Positions 3,186-33,012 of a stretch of 33,012 nucleotides of DNA are shown here, piece after piece. The translations under genes were made by a program, and so were the position numbers. The DNA comes from Bacteroidales bacterium (lineage in GTDB: Bacteria > Bacteroidota > Bacteroidia > Bacteroidales > Marinilabiliaceae). Location: positions 1 through 33,012 of the forward strand of contig JAFPZF010000096.1 of assembly GCA_017417385.1 (NCBI GenBank). Reading direction: 5' to 3'. The notes under the pieces are model-generated. The model was given only the letters and a program-made list of their open reading frames with translations. It was not told the origin of the DNA and searched no databases. Within the stretch, counting starts at the first letter, position 1; each line of letters starts with the position of its first letter.

Positions 3186-3446
3186 GGAAAGTTCTAGAAA
3201 TTAGATTTTTCCAGGCTTGCGAGCTTTTTAATACCGGAGTGTACTGGAGGAAACCTTTCGATTAAGCGAGAGCAGAACGAGCTTGCTCGTTATCCCGAGC
3301 GTGAGAAAGGTCAGCGAAGCTACATGAGGATTTCAAAAGTGAGCGTAACATTCCGATTAAGCGAGTGCAATGGAGCTTGCTCCAATTACCGAGCGTGAGG
3401 AATGAAGGCAAAGCCAACGCAGAAAAAGCAATTTATAGAAGTTCCC
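3186..3446 (+). repeat. Modular hairpin repeat, copy A (two inserted modules)
   Basis: The element begins GGAAAGTTCTAGAAATTAG and ends ATTTATAGAAGTTCCC; the two ends are imperfect inverted repeats of about 26 bp. Inside lie two stem-loop modules. Module A1 (3254-3310) has outer arms CCTTTC/GAAAGG and inner arms AACGAGC/GCTCGTT. Module A2 (3349-3404) has outer arms CATTCC/GGAATG and inner arms TGGAGC/GCTCCA. The first of the three module positions used in copies B and D is empty here, and the sequence around 3211-3231 is partly degraded. There is no open reading frame and no clean target-site duplication. It behaves like a MITE-type non-autonomous element. Confidence 0.85.
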
Positions 3447-3469
3447 TAATGATGTCAAATGATGGTTTA

Positions 3470-3500
3470 GGGGAGTTGTAGATATTTATTGAAGATGCCC
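3470..3500 (+). repeat. Collapsed, degenerate end-to-end remnant of the modular repeat
   Basis: These 31 bases read like the left end of the modular repeat joined straight to its right end (GGGGAGTTGTAG then ATTTATTGAAG then CCC), with several substitutions. The preceding 15 bases (AATGATGGTTTAG) also precede copy A, giving a direct repeat of the flank around copy A. It looks like an old scar or a minimal derivative. Confidence 0.55.
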
Positions 3501-3507
3501 TTCTTTA

Positions 3508-3537
3508 GGAAAGTTCTAGCAATTTATAGAAGTTTCC
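3508..3537 (+). repeat. Collapsed 30-bp end-to-end copy of the modular repeat
   Basis: GGAAAGTTCTAG is joined directly to CAATTTATAGAAGTTTCC, so the whole interior is missing and only the two inverted ends remain, forming a near-palindrome. It directly abuts the stop codon of the DUF6427-like gene (3538-3540). As a 30-bp palindrome at the end of a transcription unit it could act as a transcript-end hairpin for that gene. Confidence 0.7.
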
Positions 3538-12071: not shown

Positions 12072-12264
12072 GGGAAGTTCTAGAAATTAGATTTTTCACT
12101 TGTGCGATTAAGCGAGCGCAGAACGAGCTTGCTCGTTATGCCGAGCGTGAGCACATGAGACGTAGTCAAGGCGTACGAGGCTTTGAATACCGGAGTGTAC
12201 TGGAGTACATGAGGATTTCAAAGTCCGAAGTACAACGCAGAAAAAGCAATTTATCGAAGTTCCC
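12072..12264 (+). repeat. Modular hairpin repeat, copy B (one inserted module)
   Basis: The element runs from GGGAAGTTCTAGAAATTAG to ATTTATCGAAGTTCCC. Module B1 (12101-12155) fills the first insertion position, with outer arms TGTGC/GCACA and inner arms AACGAGC/GCTCGTT. After it comes the core hairpin found in all copies: CTTTGAA...TTCAAAG on the outside, CC...GG, and TGTAC-TGGA-GTACA at the tip (about 12180-12222). Module positions two and three are empty. It lies about 60 bp upstream of the gene at 12324. Confidence 0.85.
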
Positions 12265-12323
12265 TAAAGTCTTACTAAAGAGCCAAGCTATTCACTATGA
12301 AGGAAAAATCGTAATTTTGCGAT

Positions 12324-13094
12324 ATGAAAGCAAAAGAGTTCCTTGGTCGTCTGAACAGTTGGGTGACTGTCCACTGGCGACAGTGTTTGTTGATGCTGTG
12401 CGTGGTCATCGCGATGCAGCAGTGCGTGATTGGCAACCTGAGCAACCAGGTCGCAGAGTTGAAAGCCCTCGTCGAGGCCGGTAAACTGTCTGGCACAAGC
12501 GTGTCACCCCTCGACAGTCTCGCCTCCGCAAGGTCCGACAGCTCCTTGGCTCAGAATACCGCCCAGCCTTCTGGCCTCCTCTCCAGCGAGTCCGGCGAAA
12601 AGGTCGCCGAGCCCGGCTCTGGAAGTCTTAGCGAAGATGCCGCTCAGCCAGAGACGGCACAAGACGATGACGGCGTATCCTTCCTGGGCGTACTGATGGC
12701 AATAGCTGTCGTCGTCGCCATAATTCTCGGCTTTGTATATATGTACCGCAACGCCGTCTACCCGATTGGTCTCTGGGTCAGCGGCAGACTCCGCGCTGGC
12801 GTCGACGGTCGACTGACGATGCTCCTCAATGTCATCAACCGCTCCTCCAAGGATGTCGAGGTCAAGGAGGCTATCGTCAACTTCGCTATGCGTGGCGGCA
12901 CCCGTAGGTTCAAGATGAATATGTCCGACCTCCCTATGCTCCTCCAGGGGGGCACGTCCTACGTCTCCCAAATCAACCTCCTCCCGATCGTCGAGCGTAA
13001 CCCCGAACTCCGGCAGACTTATGCTATCTACGCGAGCATCCTCGTCGGCAACAAGCGTGTCGTCGGCCTCCCACGTCTCGTGAAGTTTAAGTAG
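12324..13094 (+). CDS. Unknown membrane-anchored protein with two TM segments
   Basis: I do not recognise this 256-residue protein. A first hydrophobic segment lies at 21-37, then a Ser/Ala/Glu-rich, low-complexity linker (about 55-115), then a strong transmembrane helix at 118-141, and a 110-residue C-terminal region with beta-like alternation (LLNVINRSSKDVEVK, AIYASILVGNK). The linker would be periplasmic if both helices span, leaving the C-terminal part in the cytoplasm, or the reverse; the sequence does not decide. The ATG at 12324 is preceded by TAATTTTG (12312-12319), a perfect -7 match only 4 bases away, which would make the mRNA nearly leaderless. Repeat copies B and C flank the gene. 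Its coding strand is C/T-rich like its neighbours. Confidence 0.75.
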   Translation: MKAKEFLGRLNSWVTVHWRQCLLMLCVVIAMQQCVIGNLSNQVAELKALVEAGKLSGTSVSPLDSLASARSDSSLAQNTAQPSGLLSSESGEKVAEPGSGSLSEDAAQPETAQDDDGVSFLGVLMAIAVVVAIILGFVYMYRNAVYPIGLWVSGRLRAGVDGRLTMLLNVINRSSKDVEVKEAIVNFAMRGGTRRFKMNMSDLPMLLQGGTSYVSQINLLPIVERNPELRQTYAIYASILVGNKRVVGLPRLVKFK

Positions 13095-13182
13095 TCTGAC
13101 CACCCCCTTCCCCCCACCCTATGGCGGTACTATCTTACTCTCCGCCATGATACTAGGAGTCAAGTTCTGAATATCACTATAA

Positions 13183-13301
13183 GGGCTTCTAGAAATTAGA
13201 TTTTTCAAGGCGCACGAGGCTTTGAATACCGGAGTGTACTGAAGTACATGAGGATTTCAAAGTTGAGTGCAACGCAGAAAAAGCAATTTATAGAAGTTCC
13301 C
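13183..13301 (+). repeat. Modular hairpin repeat, copy C (core only, no inserted module)
   Basis: This shortest full copy (119 bp) has both inverted ends (GGGCTTCTAGAAATTAG and ATTTATAGAAGTTCCC) and the core hairpin CTTTGAA...TTCAAAG with TGTAC/GTACA at the tip. All three module positions are empty, so it shows the precise junctions: between TTTTTC and AAGGCG, in the loop of the core hairpin, and between GTGCAAC and GCAGAAAAAGC. It ends 15 bp before the next gene. Confidence 0.85.
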
Positions 13302-13316
13302 GCACATCAATAATTT

Positions 13317-13967
13317 GTGGAAACTATCGGCAAAGCTTGGGCGCGCTATAGGCAGCGTAAGACGAAGAGAGGTATCGTCATCGATATCTCTTTCCTCGTC
13401 GTATTCCTCCTTATCGCTATCACCCCTATCCGCCGTGGCCTCCTGACCTACGTCCTCCGTACGACTATCTCAGACCCTCCCGCCTACGAGAAGGTGGTCT
13501 ACGTCTCTTCCTCCGACAGTATTAGCCTGAGGTCCGCCTCCGGTCAGGACACTACGATATCGCTCCCCCCTGCCCATCTCCTCCTCCTCAACCGTGGTAG
13601 CATCTGGAGCCCCCAGACAAGGGCGGAGATGAAAAGTCTCGAGTGCCTCCGCCGCGTAATGAACGACGATATGCTTATCTACTTCATTACTTCCGACGAC
13701 AAGGCTGACGTCGAGAGGTATTTCCGTCGCAAGGACTACCACCTCCCGACTCTCTATGTCGACGACCTACCCGAAGAGCAGGAGACTGGCAACGCTGTCA
13801 TCGACGAACTCATGATGAGTACCCCTGGAACGCTTATCATCGACAGGTCCGGCCGTGTCCGCGTCAAGAAGATGGGTGCCGCTAAGTGGGATAGCGACGA
13901 GTTTATCGAGAGGCTACGTTCTATCCTCGGCGAGGACAGTTTTCATTATGGGAGTTCTAGAAATTAG
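13317..13967 (+). CDS. Membrane-anchored TlpA-like thioredoxin fold lacking the CxxC cysteines
   Basis: The 216-residue protein has a basic start, one transmembrane helix (about 22-37) and a soluble domain that follows the TlpA/thioredoxin-like plan: a strand LLLLNRGSIWS, a helix RAEMKSLECLRRV, a strand MLIYFITSD, a helix, PTLYVDD, then STPGTLIIDRSGRV with the cis-proline position (P170) and a last helix DEFIERLRSIL. At the active site W97-S-P-Q-T101 replaces W-C-x-x-C, so both redox cysteines are gone and disulphide chemistry is not expected. Translation likely starts at GTG 13317, since no ATG precedes the TM helix. The last five residues and the stop codon are supplied by repeat copy D. 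The function is unknown; a binding or structural role is possible. Confidence 0.72.
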   Translation: METIGKAWARYRQRKTKRGIVIDISFLVVFLLIAITPIRRGLLTYVLRTTISDPPAYEKVVYVSSSDSISLRSASGQDTTISLPPAHLLLLNRGSIWSPQTRAEMKSLECLRRVMNDDMLIYFITSDDKADVERYFRRKDYHLPTLYVDDLPEEQETGNAVIDELMMSTPGTLIIDRSGRVRVKKMGAAKWDSDEFIERLRSILGEDSFHYGSSRN

Positions 13968-14280
13968 ATTTTTCACTTGTGCGATAAAGCGAGAGAAATG
14001 GAGCTTGCTCCTATTTCCGAGCGAGAGCACATGAGGCGAAGCCAAGGCGCACGAGGCTTTGAATACCGGAGTGTACTGTAGGAAACCTTTCGATTAAGCG
14101 AGAGCAGAACGAGCTTGCTCGTTATGCCGAGCGTGAGAAAGGTCAGCGAAGCTACATGAGGATTTCAAAGTCCGAAGTGCAACATTCCGATTAAGCGAGA
14201 GCAATGGAGCTTGCTCCTATTGCCGAGCGTGAGGAATGAAGGCAACGCCAACGCAGAAAAAGCAATTTATAGAAGTTCCC
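13950..14280 (+). repeat. Modular hairpin repeat, copy D (all three modules present)
   Basis: This is the fullest copy (331 bp). Module D1 (13978-14031) sits at position one with outer arms TGTGC/GCACA but inner arms GGAGC/GCTCC. Module D2 (14086-14142) sits in the loop of the core hairpin with outer arms CCTTTC/GAAAGG and inner arms AACGAGC/GCTCGTT. Module D3 (14183-14238) sits at position three with outer arms CATTCC/GGAATG and inner arms GGAGC/GCTCC. The left end provides the stop codon of the TlpA-like gene, and the right end runs to within 16 bp of the likely start of the DUF4153 gene. Confidence 0.88.
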
Positions 14281-14295
14281 ATTAACATATCGCTT

Positions 14296-15825
14296 ATGAT
14301 GAGAGCAACCGACTGGCGCTCCTACGCCGCATCAATGGTCTCGAGCCTGACCCTGACGATGAGACGCAATGTCGTCGAGTCTTTTATTGTCCTCCTGACA
14401 GCTGCCTCTTGTGCTGTCCTCCCCTACTTTGATATGAAGGGGAGTCTTGACGACTTCCTGGCGTCGGTTCTCTTCTTCTCTTCTATTTTCGGCCCCCTGG
14501 CGTTGCTGCTCAATGCGCTCTCGAGGTCCTATGCCTGGCTCAAGGTCGCCTACTGGCTCCTCATACCTATATATATATGTCTTGTCCTTCTTGGTGTCTT
14601 CGCCTTCGACGTCTATGGCATCTTTGGCGCCTGGCACCCGACTCTCGCTCTCGAATGTCTCGTCGCGAGATTCCTCCTGCCGATGCCTAAGAATGACAGG
14701 GCTCTGACACGCCGCGGCTTGGAGTGCGCTGTCGTCCTTACGACGAGTCTCTGCGTCGCCGTCTTTACGACTCTCATCATCTTAGCCCTCCTCGCGACGT
14801 TCAACTATATCTTCGACCAGGAAGTCCTTTACTACGTCTGTTACTTTCCGCCCCTATTCCTCGTCCCGATGTTGTTTATGTCGACTTTTATCGACGACCA
14901 GCCCGATTCTTCGGGCGATGCCGAGTCTGTGTCTATCGATAGCGAGGTCGCCAATGGCGTGATGAACTTCGTCGTCAGCATCGCCATCATTCTATACATT
15001 CTTATATTATATGTCTACGGCCTCCGCATTGCTTTTGCCCTCGAACTTCCCCGTGGCGGTGTCGTGATGCGCGTCTTCTGGTTCCTCCTCCTCGTCATCG
15101 TCTTTGGCAATATCTACCGCCTCATGACGGTGAGGGTCTTCGAGAAACTCTATTCTTGGCTCCACGTCCTCTGCGTCCCGCTGACCGCCCTCCTCTGGGT
15201 CGCCGCCTATCGCCGTGTGGCGGACTATGGTCTGACCGACTGGCGTGTCTATATGTTGCTCTGTTGTGTTCTCGTCACCGTGTGGGTCGTCGTATCCTTC
15301 TTCCGCCGTGGTCGCGCTCTGCTGACTACTATCCTGACAGGCATGGCTCTGTTCGCCGTCGTCGGTGTCCCCGGCGTCCTCTCTGCTGCCAGCCTCGTCA
15401 AGATATACAACGACAACTATTCTCCCGAGACCGTTCCCCCCGTCCCCGATCCGCGTTTCTATGCCGAGGCCCGACGCACTAATGTCCAGATCGACACGAG
15501 AGGCTTCGAAGTCTTCACCCTTATCGACTACTCCTACCTCGATAGGAATAGTCACAGACTCCATGTCGTCGACTACGACCACAACGACGCCCTCTCTCTC
15601 GACTCCGACTCCCTTATGCACACGATTGCCCTCCTCAATGGCTACCCCTCCTTCGTCGCCCTCTCTGACTCTCTCCGCCTCCGCGACGACACTCTCCCTC
15701 CTCTCCGCCTCGACCTCGACATCCCCCTCGGCGATTCCCTCGTCGTCATTATCACCTCCTTCACCCTCAATCAGGATGGCCTCCACGACGTCTCCTGCCG
15801 TGGACTCCTCTCCCACCCCGAATAG
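14296..15825 (+). CDS. DUF4153-domain multi-pass membrane protein
   Basis: About 509 residues with some ten to twelve hydrophobic segments over the first 380, then a polar C-terminal domain (after SLVKIYNDNYSP) with alternating hydrophobic residues, likely outside the membrane. The stretch RRVADYGLTDWRVYM in the second half of the membrane region is the part I recognise as typical of DUF4153 proteins of Bacteroidetes. Function is unknown. An in-frame ATG at 14236 lies inside repeat copy D and would add 20 residues encoded by repeat DNA; I prefer the ATG pair at 14296/14299 directly after the repeat. The coding strand is extremely C-rich (bases 15601-15660 have 27 C against 9 G), making many Ser/Asp/Leu codons of one type near the end. 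Confidence 0.82.
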   Translation: MMRATDWRSYAASMVSSLTLTMRRNVVESFIVLLTAASCAVLPYFDMKGSLDDFLASVLFFSSIFGPLALLLNALSRSYAWLKVAYWLLIPIYICLVLLGVFAFDVYGIFGAWHPTLALECLVARFLLPMPKNDRALTRRGLECAVVLTTSLCVAVFTTLIILALLATFNYIFDQEVLYYVCYFPPLFLVPMLFMSTFIDDQPDSSGDAESVSIDSEVANGVMNFVVSIAIILYILILYVYGLRIAFALELPRGGVVMRVFWFLLLVIVFGNIYRLMTVRVFEKLYSWLHVLCVPLTALLWVAAYRRVADYGLTDWRVYMLLCCVLVTVWVVVSFFRRGRALLTTILTGMALFAVVGVPGVLSAASLVKIYNDNYSPETVPPVPDPRFYAEARRTNVQIDTRGFEVFTLIDYSYLDRNSHRLHVVDYDHNDALSLDSDSLMHTIALLNGYPSFVALSDSLRLRDDTLPPLRLDLDIPLGDSLVVIITSFTLNQDGLHDVSCRGLLSHPE

Positions 15826-31892: not shown

Positions 31893-33012
31893 TTAGTCGA
31901 CGAGGTAGTTGTCGATGTTGCGGATTTTGGAAGAGAAGTTGACACCGAGGCAGACGATCTTCTTGCCGGAGGACTGGAAGGGTAGGGCGTAGTTGTTGTT
32001 CTTAATCTGCTGTAGTGCGAGCTCGGCAGTCTTGTCGAACTTGAACTCGAAGATGTAGACATACTTGTCCGTCTCGATAGTCATGTCGATACGACCCTGA
32101 GAGGTGTGATATTCCGCACGTGTGTAGAGACCGCACAAATTACATAATATATACAGAACGTTCTGGTAATGGTTTTCAAGTTCGCGGACGAGCAAGTATG
32201 GGGATTCCGCAAGGAAGCTCTTGAGACGGGTCATGAAGTCGTCGACTCTGCCGGAGCGGAGCTCCTTGACGAAGTTCATAATCTGGAAGCTAGAGTTGCC
32301 GACCTCCTTGGGGACGTAGGAGGGCATGAGGTAGTTGAAGAAGCCCTCTCGGACTTCCTCGTTAGGAAAGCCGAGGCTGTAGGAGCTGAACTCGGGGTCG
32401 AAGTTCTTGATAGTCAGGTATCCGCTCTGGAATAGGAGTGGTACAGGGTCGTCTGATTCGATGGCGGAAAGGATGCTGGCAGTAACCTCCTCGGTCGTCA
32501 TGCGCTCGAGGTTGTAGTTGTGACTCTGGAGCATAGTCACGAGGTAGGAAGGCGTGCCGGTGGAGAACCAGAAGCTGCCGAACTTCTGGTGGTATAGGCA
32601 ATTGAGAACACTGAAAGGATTGTAGACGCCGTCAGAGTCTTCCGAAAAATGGTAGCCGTCGTAGCGGTGCTTAATCACGGCGTAGGTGTCTTCGATAGAC
32701 TTGTTCACCTTTTCTGCGAGCGACTCGACGTAGGGTCGCAAGACAGTCGTCATCTCCTTGTTGTCGATGCCACAGATGTTGAAGAAGCGGCTGCTCATGG
32801 AGATGTCGTTCAAGTTGTTGAGGCTACTGAAGATGCTGAGGTGGCCGAACTTGGTGACACCGGTGAGGAGGGCGAAACGGATGCAGGCGTCCATGCTCTT
32901 AAGGACAGAGTAGAAGCCGCGGAGGATATTGCGAAATGTGTCTTGAAGCTCAGGCTTTTCTATTGCCTGGAGGAGAGGCTTCTCGTACTCGTCGACGAGG
33001 ATGACGACTTGG
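31893..33012 (-). CDS. AAA-ATPase-like/PD-(D/E)XK protein, 5' end cut by window edge
   Basis: The visible part is the C-terminal 372 residues of the Bacteroidetes AAA-ATPase-like family with a restriction-nuclease-like tail. Reading continues to the edge: VVILVDEYEKPLL just inside it is the Walker B region, so the Walker A part and the true start lie beyond 33012. The C-terminal region has GRIDMTI and IFEFKFDKTAELA, the D...ExK pattern of a PD-(D/E)XK nuclease. These proteins occur in many paralogous copies in Prevotella and Bacteroides genomes and are often linked to mobile or defence regions, with unknown role. Stop TAA at 31893-31895. Confidence 0.88.
   Translation of the reverse strand, partial: QVVILVDEYEKPLLQAIEKPELQDTFRNILRGFYSVLKSMDACIRFALLTGVTKFGHLSIFSSLNNLNDISMSSRFFNICGIDNKEMTTVLRPYVESLAEKVNKSIEDTYAVIKHRYDGYHFSEDSDGVYNPFSVLNCLYHQKFGSFWFSTGTPSYLVTMLQSHNYNLERMTTEEVTASILSAIESDDPVPLLFQSGYLTIKNFDPEFSSYSLGFPNEEVREGFFNYLMPSYVPKEVGNSSFQIMNFVKELRSGRVDDFMTRLKSFLAESPYLLVRELENHYQNVLYILCNLCGLYTRAEYHTSQGRIDMTIETDKYVYIFEFKFDKTAELALQQIKNNNYALPFQSSGKKIVCLGVNFSSKIRNIDNYLVD

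Follow-up and report, generated by a model that had tools for sequence, protein, structure and literature searches.

How does a small intergenic repeat come to carry other, smaller hairpins at the same few points of its sequence, and what might move either of them? The question is raised by a 33,012-nt stretch of DNA (the window; JAFPZF010000096.1, positions 1-33,012 of the forward strand) from a Bacteroidales bacterium (GCA_017417385.1; assembly G000, 3.6 Mb in 97 contigs), in which four copies, A to D, of a short noncoding element, here called E, differ by whole modules of about 70 bp. The first-pass annotation of the window had described a repeat within a repeat, in which hairpin units are nested in a larger element resembling a miniature inverted-repeat transposable element (MITE), and paired terminal inverted repeats together with a 4-bp target duplication bear this description out. 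Examined across the assembly, these repeats probably represent two layers of mobile noncoding hairpins, namely E itself and a separate family of modules that insert into loops.

All four copies lie on the + strand, at the places and with the module contents originally assigned to them. Copy C (13183-13301, 119 bp) has no module and forms a long hairpin (-43 kcal/mol, z -6.8). Copy B (12072-12264) carries module M1 alone, at site S1, the 5′ junction (12097-12166); copy A (3186-3446) lacks module 1 and carries M2 in the apical loop, site S2 (3250-3320), and M3 at the 3′ junction, site S3 (3346-3414); and copy D (13949-14280) carries all three, at S1 (13974-14042), S2 (14082-14152), and S3 (14180-14248). 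The right edge of copy D is as first drawn, and its left edge shifts from 13950 to 13949, bounded there by the ATTA repeat that constitutes its 4-bp target duplication (13945-13948 and 14281-14284, +). The modules, initially put at 60-80 bp, measure 69-71 bp in the window. The placement of B, C, and D between successive genes fails for copy D: one open reading frame (ORF; 13317-13967) runs into it and has its stop codon inside, and another (14236-15825) has its listed start there. The terminal patterns of E match five and four times in the window against 0.00 expected, and the end-pattern counts and their controls rule out chance repeats. Two short hairpins at 3469-3537 are internal deletion products; in one of them (3508-3537, +), recognized from the end patterns and by direct reading, the left end is fused directly to the right end. 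A scan of the window against Rfam gave no match at E-values up to 1.

Genome-wide, and with up to three mismatches allowed, 115 left and 121 right ends of E were found, as opposed to 0 and 1 for reversed-pattern controls. Stretches were fetched around the end matches (100 left and 100 right ends among the matches listed), and 99 complete, non-overlapping copies from them were analysed. Measured from one inner end mark to the other, their lengths fall into groups at 112, ~182, ~252, and ~323 bp and rise in steps of ~65-70 bp with the number of modules (length = 64.8 x modules + 114.6, r = 0.977); copies with zero to seven modules number 26, 24, 20, 14, 8, 4, 1, and 2, respectively. The exact insertion points that had been claimed from the window hold generally, as the junctions are fixed in most copies genome-wide, with some of the most heavily rearranged copies aligning poorly. 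Among the 81 of 99 copies that could be scored (18 with unparsable cores were dropped), all eight combinations of presence and absence at S1, S2, and S3 occur, S1+S2 just once. On a tree of the cores based on ~107 columns, module presence changes 24 times at S2 versus 23.0 for shuffled labels, and 23 times at S3 versus 27.3. Contigs C6, C18, C31, and C32 start or end inside or right beside copies of E, which is what a repeat that interrupts assembly would produce.

The core of E is a conserved structure. An alignment of 28 zero-module cores, 23 from this genome and 5 from two uncultured metagenome-assembled genomes (MAGs), yields a single long hairpin of 43 pairs with its ends paired. Of all alignment cells, 96.3% pair, versus 34-49% for slid partners, and both sides have changed at 19 of the 43 pairs (90 cells), versus 9.8 pairs and 21.2 cells under shuffling (0/500 shuffles). 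The terminal bases also covary by complement, which argues that the ends are maintained as pairs. On the element strand, G.U outnumbers A.C 91 to 8, and still 31 to 7 once three columns with a G.U majority are set aside; since the alignment rows are related, this excess is only an indication. Sites S1 and S3 are the 5′ and 3′ junctions between the outer stem and the inner helix and S2 is the apical loop; all three are unpaired. Copy D folds with -115 kcal/mol (z -5.0), retaining the outer stem and with every module as a separate branch, while its reverse strand folds with -100 kcal/mol (z -4.2).

Within the elements, the modules are inserted in a single orientation (307 module marks in the element direction, 0 opposed). 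Five types can be told apart by their outer stems: TGTGC/GCACA at S1, CCTTTC/GAAAGG at S2, ATTCC/GGAAT at S3, and, for modules within modules, ACTTTC/GAAAGT in the 5′ arm and CTTTTC/GAAAAG in the 3′ arm. In the 61 of 69 modules that could be parsed (8 could not), these stems are Watson-Crick in 283 of 305 cells, and 21 of the remainder are T.T. By reading, the inner hairpins vary in sequence and keep their pairing, and the 3-bp mini-hairpin that follows reads GGC-GAA-GCC, AGC-GAA-GCT, GGC-AAC-GCC, or GAC-GTA-GTC. Modules of type M5 also occur at S2 in two copies (C1:23934 and C51:17341), and in several copies a module of type M3 or M5 follows another one in tandem. The three fixed positions recognized in the window are thus joined by two further fixed sites inside the modules, which makes the nesting recursive: relative to the seed of the module that hosts them, nested modules are offset by +22 or +44 to +48 nt, and, judged by these offsets, the nesting is three deep at C77:165396 and C9:8646. 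Derivation of the modules from shrunken copies of the core or of the enterobacterial repetitive intergenic consensus (ERIC) was rejected, the similarity of M1 and M3 being no better than that of shuffles.

The first-pass annotation had also proposed looking for modules outside the element, and they are present there. The fetched stretches contain 103 exact module patterns, 74 of them within complete elements and 29 elsewhere, and 13 of the latter have no element mark within 420 nt. These outlying modules reside mainly in two other repeats, termed host X and host Y (loci L141, L109, L130, L121, L120, L115, and L118). Host X is a two-hairpin repeat, GCCCT-GAA-AGGGC followed by CAGGGC-AGC-GCCCTG, whose first loop is filled in 6 cases and empty in 3 and whose second loop is filled in 4 and empty in 6; host Y, a GCATTTGTAATGC hairpin repeat (GCATTTGTA/ATGCG), is filled in 6 cases and empty in 4. 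These counts, which cover 737 kb, are no census, as the patterns were fitted to examples seen and insertions in the same direction alone were sought. Given that modules also fill loops of two repeats known in empty form, they constitute a separate insertable hairpin family. Two copies of host X coincide with the best weak matches to the Acido-Lenti-1 RNA (RF01687; E-values 0.053 and 0.091), at 25.2 and 24.3 bits versus a gathering score of 37; this likeness concerns host X alone, and neither E nor the modules. Beyond this assembly, the exact module pattern was found in 0 of 70 other genomes of the family, where no looser module search was made; its four matches in viral contigs were all judged by reading to be chance, the left-end pattern had 0 matches in viral contigs, and a plasmid collection searched with copy C and a module returned no match.

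Evidence of mobility comes from the flanks of E. Exact 4-bp direct repeats bracket 19 of the 99 copies versus 2.7 expected (0/400 permutations), and the excess persists for non-palindromic repeats (14 versus 2.1), with inverted 4-mers in that set not enriched (1 versus 2.05). A fifth duplicated base is seen outward in 0 of 99 copies and inward, at the terminal C, in 9 versus 1.2 expected, so that the duplication may measure 5 bp. Two copies (C13:14485 and C66:16063) lie in regions with element-free paralogues. The paralogue of the former is window 31893-32473 (PDDEXK_9), part of a PDDEXK_9 gene at 31893-32894 whose C13 counterpart is interrupted by a copy of E. None of 14 congeners matches E with model R1, and syntenic empty sites in congeners had to be abandoned, since these genomes are too diverged (64-73% in matched parts).

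The placement of E in the genome is strongly polarized. We take GC skew to mark the direction of replication; on the element strand it has a negative sign for 97 of 99 copies when 1.5 kb is considered and for 98 of 99 at both 4 and 8 kb. Within co-oriented ORFs it is negative in 56 of 56 cases and within anti-oriented ORFs in 76 of 87 (third codon positions, 1.5 kb). Neighbouring copies less than 20 kb apart share their orientation in 34 of 35 pairs, and neighbours at any distance in 43 of 50. In the parts of the assembly examined, the sign of the skew flips every 10-40 kb, and element orientation flips with it in contigs C9, C22, C66, and C85 and, in weaker form, in C41 and C62; in C8 no such flip is visible. 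Gene strand explains less than skew: among the 94 copies for which gene context was counted (five were omitted for a side without a called ORF or a lookup failure), 41 are '<E<' versus 16 '>E>'. Of 60 copies toward which the downstream gene runs, 31 have the stop codon of that gene no more than 20 nt from their right end mark. In the window itself (1-33012), skew is negative before ~17 kb and positive after. Skew domains of 10-40 kb are unusual for a bacterial chromosome and perhaps reflect many inversions or misjoins.

In the mechanism that we favour, E is a MITE-like element that inserts whole into AT-rich sites with a 4-bp target duplication, and its strand, read left to right, folds into one long imperfect hairpin whose pairing, ends included, is conserved. 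The ~70-bp modules constitute a second, separate hairpin family, each comprising a main hairpin, of which the inner part is shared and the outer stem is specific to the site, and then a 3-bp mini-hairpin. They enter unpaired positions of folded hairpins in one orientation, be these the loops and junctions of E, the loops of the two other repeats, or the internal loops of modules, and, because each module brings new loops, insertion is recursive. Both layers may move as folded single strands, either of replication-fork DNA or of an RNA intermediate, through an enzyme that would recognize structure, and modules are presumably lost or exchanged as well as gained; it is possible that they are excisable, as first proposed. 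Taken one step further, the modules could amount to a new kind of mobile element, namely ~70-nt gene-free hairpins that move as folded strands at the fork, target the hairpin loop of any family, and build self-similar trees, an idea that we put forward tentatively and with more doubt than conviction.

A number of observations weigh against this two-layer mechanism. All data on the home genome are drawn from a single 97-contig assembly, and the search of hosts X and Y sought insertions in the same direction alone. The correspondence of module type to site is nearly one to one, as a few founding insertions would give, and presence at S1 tracks the tree of the cores, with 13 changes versus 26.2 for shuffled labels. 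Single modules folded in their host as DNA do mildly better than shuffled controls (z -0.9 and -1.6, reaching -3.1 with longer flank). The empty sites at C13:14485 and C66:16063 show no clear 4-bp duplication, their paralogues having diverged. Strand bias is weaker for modules outside complete elements (same strand for 87 of 101 seeds and 28 of 37 clusters). In relatives, negative skew is found at 11 of 19 f1 loci, 12 of 26 f19 loci, 5 of 6 MAG loci, and 2 of 3 others, and at 8 of 15 loci in genome G038 and 9 of 15 in G047, and 23 of 52 neighbours are same-oriented among 53 listed matches on the G047 chromosome; strand bias as a general trait of the superfamily was accordingly rejected. Nor is there an evident enzyme. 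The transposase or REP-associated tyrosine transposase (RAYT; REP, repetitive extragenic palindrome) that the first-pass annotation suggested seeking was not found, with 0 matches to Y1_Tnp and 0 to DDE_Tnp_1 in an assembly-wide search that took in neither relaxases nor other families. The sole reverse transcriptase match, a large ORF cut by the end of its locus (L311, 140-2797; C5:776), is unlinked to the elements and has RVT_1 as its only Pfam domain. It looks like a defence protein, presumably an anti-phage or defence reverse transcriptase with a nitrilase-like tail, and was rejected as a mobilizer.

Several of these points are equally those of an alternative in which the modules are immobile: each type would have entered an ancestral E once and spread with it, and the mosaic would stem from gene conversion between copies and from the precise removal of hairpins by replication slippage at short direct repeats. 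To the near one-to-one match of type and site and the clustering of S1 on the core tree, it can add the CAAC repeats that flank S3 inserts and the existence of end-to-end deletion remnants such as window 3508-3537. We nevertheless regard it as unlikely, if well worth keeping in view, since the loops of two repeats unrelated to E hold modules in filled and empty forms, types M3 and M5 are not confined to a single kind of site, presence at S2 is as scattered as shuffled labels, and no fewer than several founding insertions, into different hosts, would be required. The modules could also be passive cargo of an ordinary MITE mobilized by a DDE transposase. The 4-bp target duplication and terminal inverted repeats are what such an element would display, and, insertion sequences often being lost from fragmented assemblies, its source may have dropped out of this one. 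This explanation, which we hold to be improbable, has to contend with compensatory variation of the terminal bases, unlike an inverted repeat recognized by sequence, and with an assembly devoid of DDE_Tnp_1 matches (other DDE families lay outside the search), and it leaves the modules in other hosts unexplained.

A different alternative is a functional one, the elements being conserved RNAs, for example 3′-end or mRNA-stability elements, and the modules tolerated expansions. Covariation with a one-strand excess of G.U, unpaired motifs conserved in relatives, and the proximity of facing stop codons to the right end mark (31 of 60 copies) all accord with it, and Yersinia ERIC is reported to influence mRNA stability (PMC2229807, PMC10969869). 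Yet the folded strand is mostly antisense to its neighbours (41 '<E<' versus 16 '>E>'), the lack of a match in any of the 14 congeners implies that the element is dispensable, and a scatter of ~100 copies accompanied by target duplications speaks for mobility, so that this reading seems distinctly improbable to us. Finally, collapsed repeats could have generated modules and mosaics as artefacts of a 97-contig assembly in which several contigs start or end in elements. This is scarcely credible, since copies with zero, one, and three modules are found within contigs with different flanks, as are the exact junctions, the compensatory variants, and the empty sites. The reading with two mobile layers remains the one that we carry forward.

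The first-pass annotation knew of no described family of this build. The core hairpin of E in fact has widespread kin, including an enterobacterial intergenic repeat and perhaps ERIC. Relatives of E occur in other genera and classes. Model R1, to which no enterobacterial sequence contributed, has matches in 30 of the family's 71 genomes and in 39 of 395 genomes sampled across the phylum (own genome included in both). With model R2, every one of 150 candidates scored in G038 matches, as do 85 of 150 in G047. Set A3 comprises 24 chosen sequences, 19 of them relatives. In family f1, a copy at L194 (1250-1460) carries different inserts, one at S1 and one at S3, and adjoins an insert-free neighbour. 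In a lake MAG (L183, 5826-5998), the same element has a small hairpin ending in AGCGAAGCT in its outer 3′ arm, where no insert was seen in the home genome; this locus with its displaced insert was excluded from A1. Two of eight genome-contig matches (L188 and L189) were dropped as chance. Weak, subthreshold matches to sX9, a Xanthomonas small RNA in Rfam, lie opposite the element strand in f19 (L216, L235, and L238; E-values 0.007-0.12), and sX9 may derive from such a repeat.

A blastn search from an f19 copy retrieved 18 records of the plasmid collection, 15 of them from Escherichia, Salmonella, or Klebsiella, with an E-value of 1e-12 for the enterobacterial repeat of L239, L240, and L242. 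This repeat shares the core hairpin ACCGGAGYGTAC..GTACRTGAGGAT with E. Two cores of the home genome align with the Klebsiella copy L240 at Smith-Waterman p values of 6e-6 and 2e-7, and R1 scores 29.2 bits for it (E-value 5e-6), 22.1 for the Yersinia phage copy L242, and a partial 17.3 for the E. coli copy L239. Against 14 sequences, L240 reaches p < 0.001 in 6, with p 0.18 for L182, the closest to the home type. The repeat differs from E in having other ends and being richer in GC, those of its copies that were read showed no modules, and the Comamonas copy L241 has no R1 match. The repeat of L239, L240, and L242 is possibly RSA. RU-2/YPAL was ruled out as this relative by the sequence published for it (PMC2759123).

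Sequence comparison makes kinship of E with ERIC likely, although not proved. Both are long imperfect hairpins, the ERIC consensus measuring 127 bp, with many intergenic copies and insertions near stop codons. R1 matches E. coli ERIC end to end at both E. coli loci (22.9 bits, E-value 4e-4 in 6 kb), R2 scores 27 bits (E-value 2e-4) in L244 and 22.5 bits (E-value 0.003) in L243, and the best-matching relative, L206, shares AGGAG-TTAC..GTAA-TGACTG with it (p 7e-4). In one Salmonella ERIC, the position that corresponds to S3 holds a hairpin insert, and the resulting long form is widespread, with 170 of 312 matching plasmid records covering at least 80% of it. On the other side, a direct pairwise comparison of copy C with ERIC falls short of significance (p 0.11 and 0.06), and of 14 sequences 2 attain p < 0.01 against the E. 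coli repeat and 6 against that of Salmonella. Inserts of ~70 bp at fixed ERIC sites were reportedly described by Sharp in 1997 and by Cromie et al. in 1997, and we know of no nested or multi-host modules in ERIC. The duplications differ, being 4 bp for E and TA for ERIC, which De Gregorio is said to have identified as its target duplication in 2005. TA at the ends of ERIC also appears in a table of a review (PMC2229807).

Among other known systems, the streptococcal BOX element (boxA-boxB-boxC) is likewise a hairpin element with a variable number of internal modules, and boxB folds largely by itself (PMC3049150). In that description, boxB is repeated in tandem at one place, whereas the modules of E occupy three sites, are nested, and reside in other repeats; the comparison is one of arrangement. 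Hairpin recognition and strand polarity in REP/RAYT and IS200/IS605 systems would suit the proposed mechanism; no Y1 transposase was found in this assembly. With MITEs in general, E shares its short, noncoding nature, terminal inverted repeats, target duplications, and many copies, and BrickBuilt of Porphyromonas is named as a MITE with tandem repeats in a review (PMC10969869). The literature searched held, among the matches listed, nothing on nested hairpin modules or ERIC-like repeats in Bacteroidota. ERIC inserts and BOX are thus the nearest precedents, and recursive nesting and the use of several hosts look new. Elsewhere in the window, HipA is encoded by two ORFs (590-1851), an N-terminal Couple_hipA and a HipA_C (Pfam). 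We take this split gene to resemble tripartite Hip toxin-antitoxin loci.

The spread of ERIC-like hairpin repeats has so far gone unexplained, and in 2007 a review found movement of such elements by transposases to have no experimental support yet (PMC2229807). Here, ~100 copies in one genome hold inserts whose nesting reveals their order of entry. The nested inserts, the empty and filled loops, and a near-absolute strand polarity suggest that the mechanism operates on single strands in folded form, a proposal that thereby becomes testable by comparing strains. One conserved hairpin core also ties E to an enterobacterial intergenic repeat. The nested hairpins of this genome provide a readable record of how tiny, gene-free DNA elements may spread.

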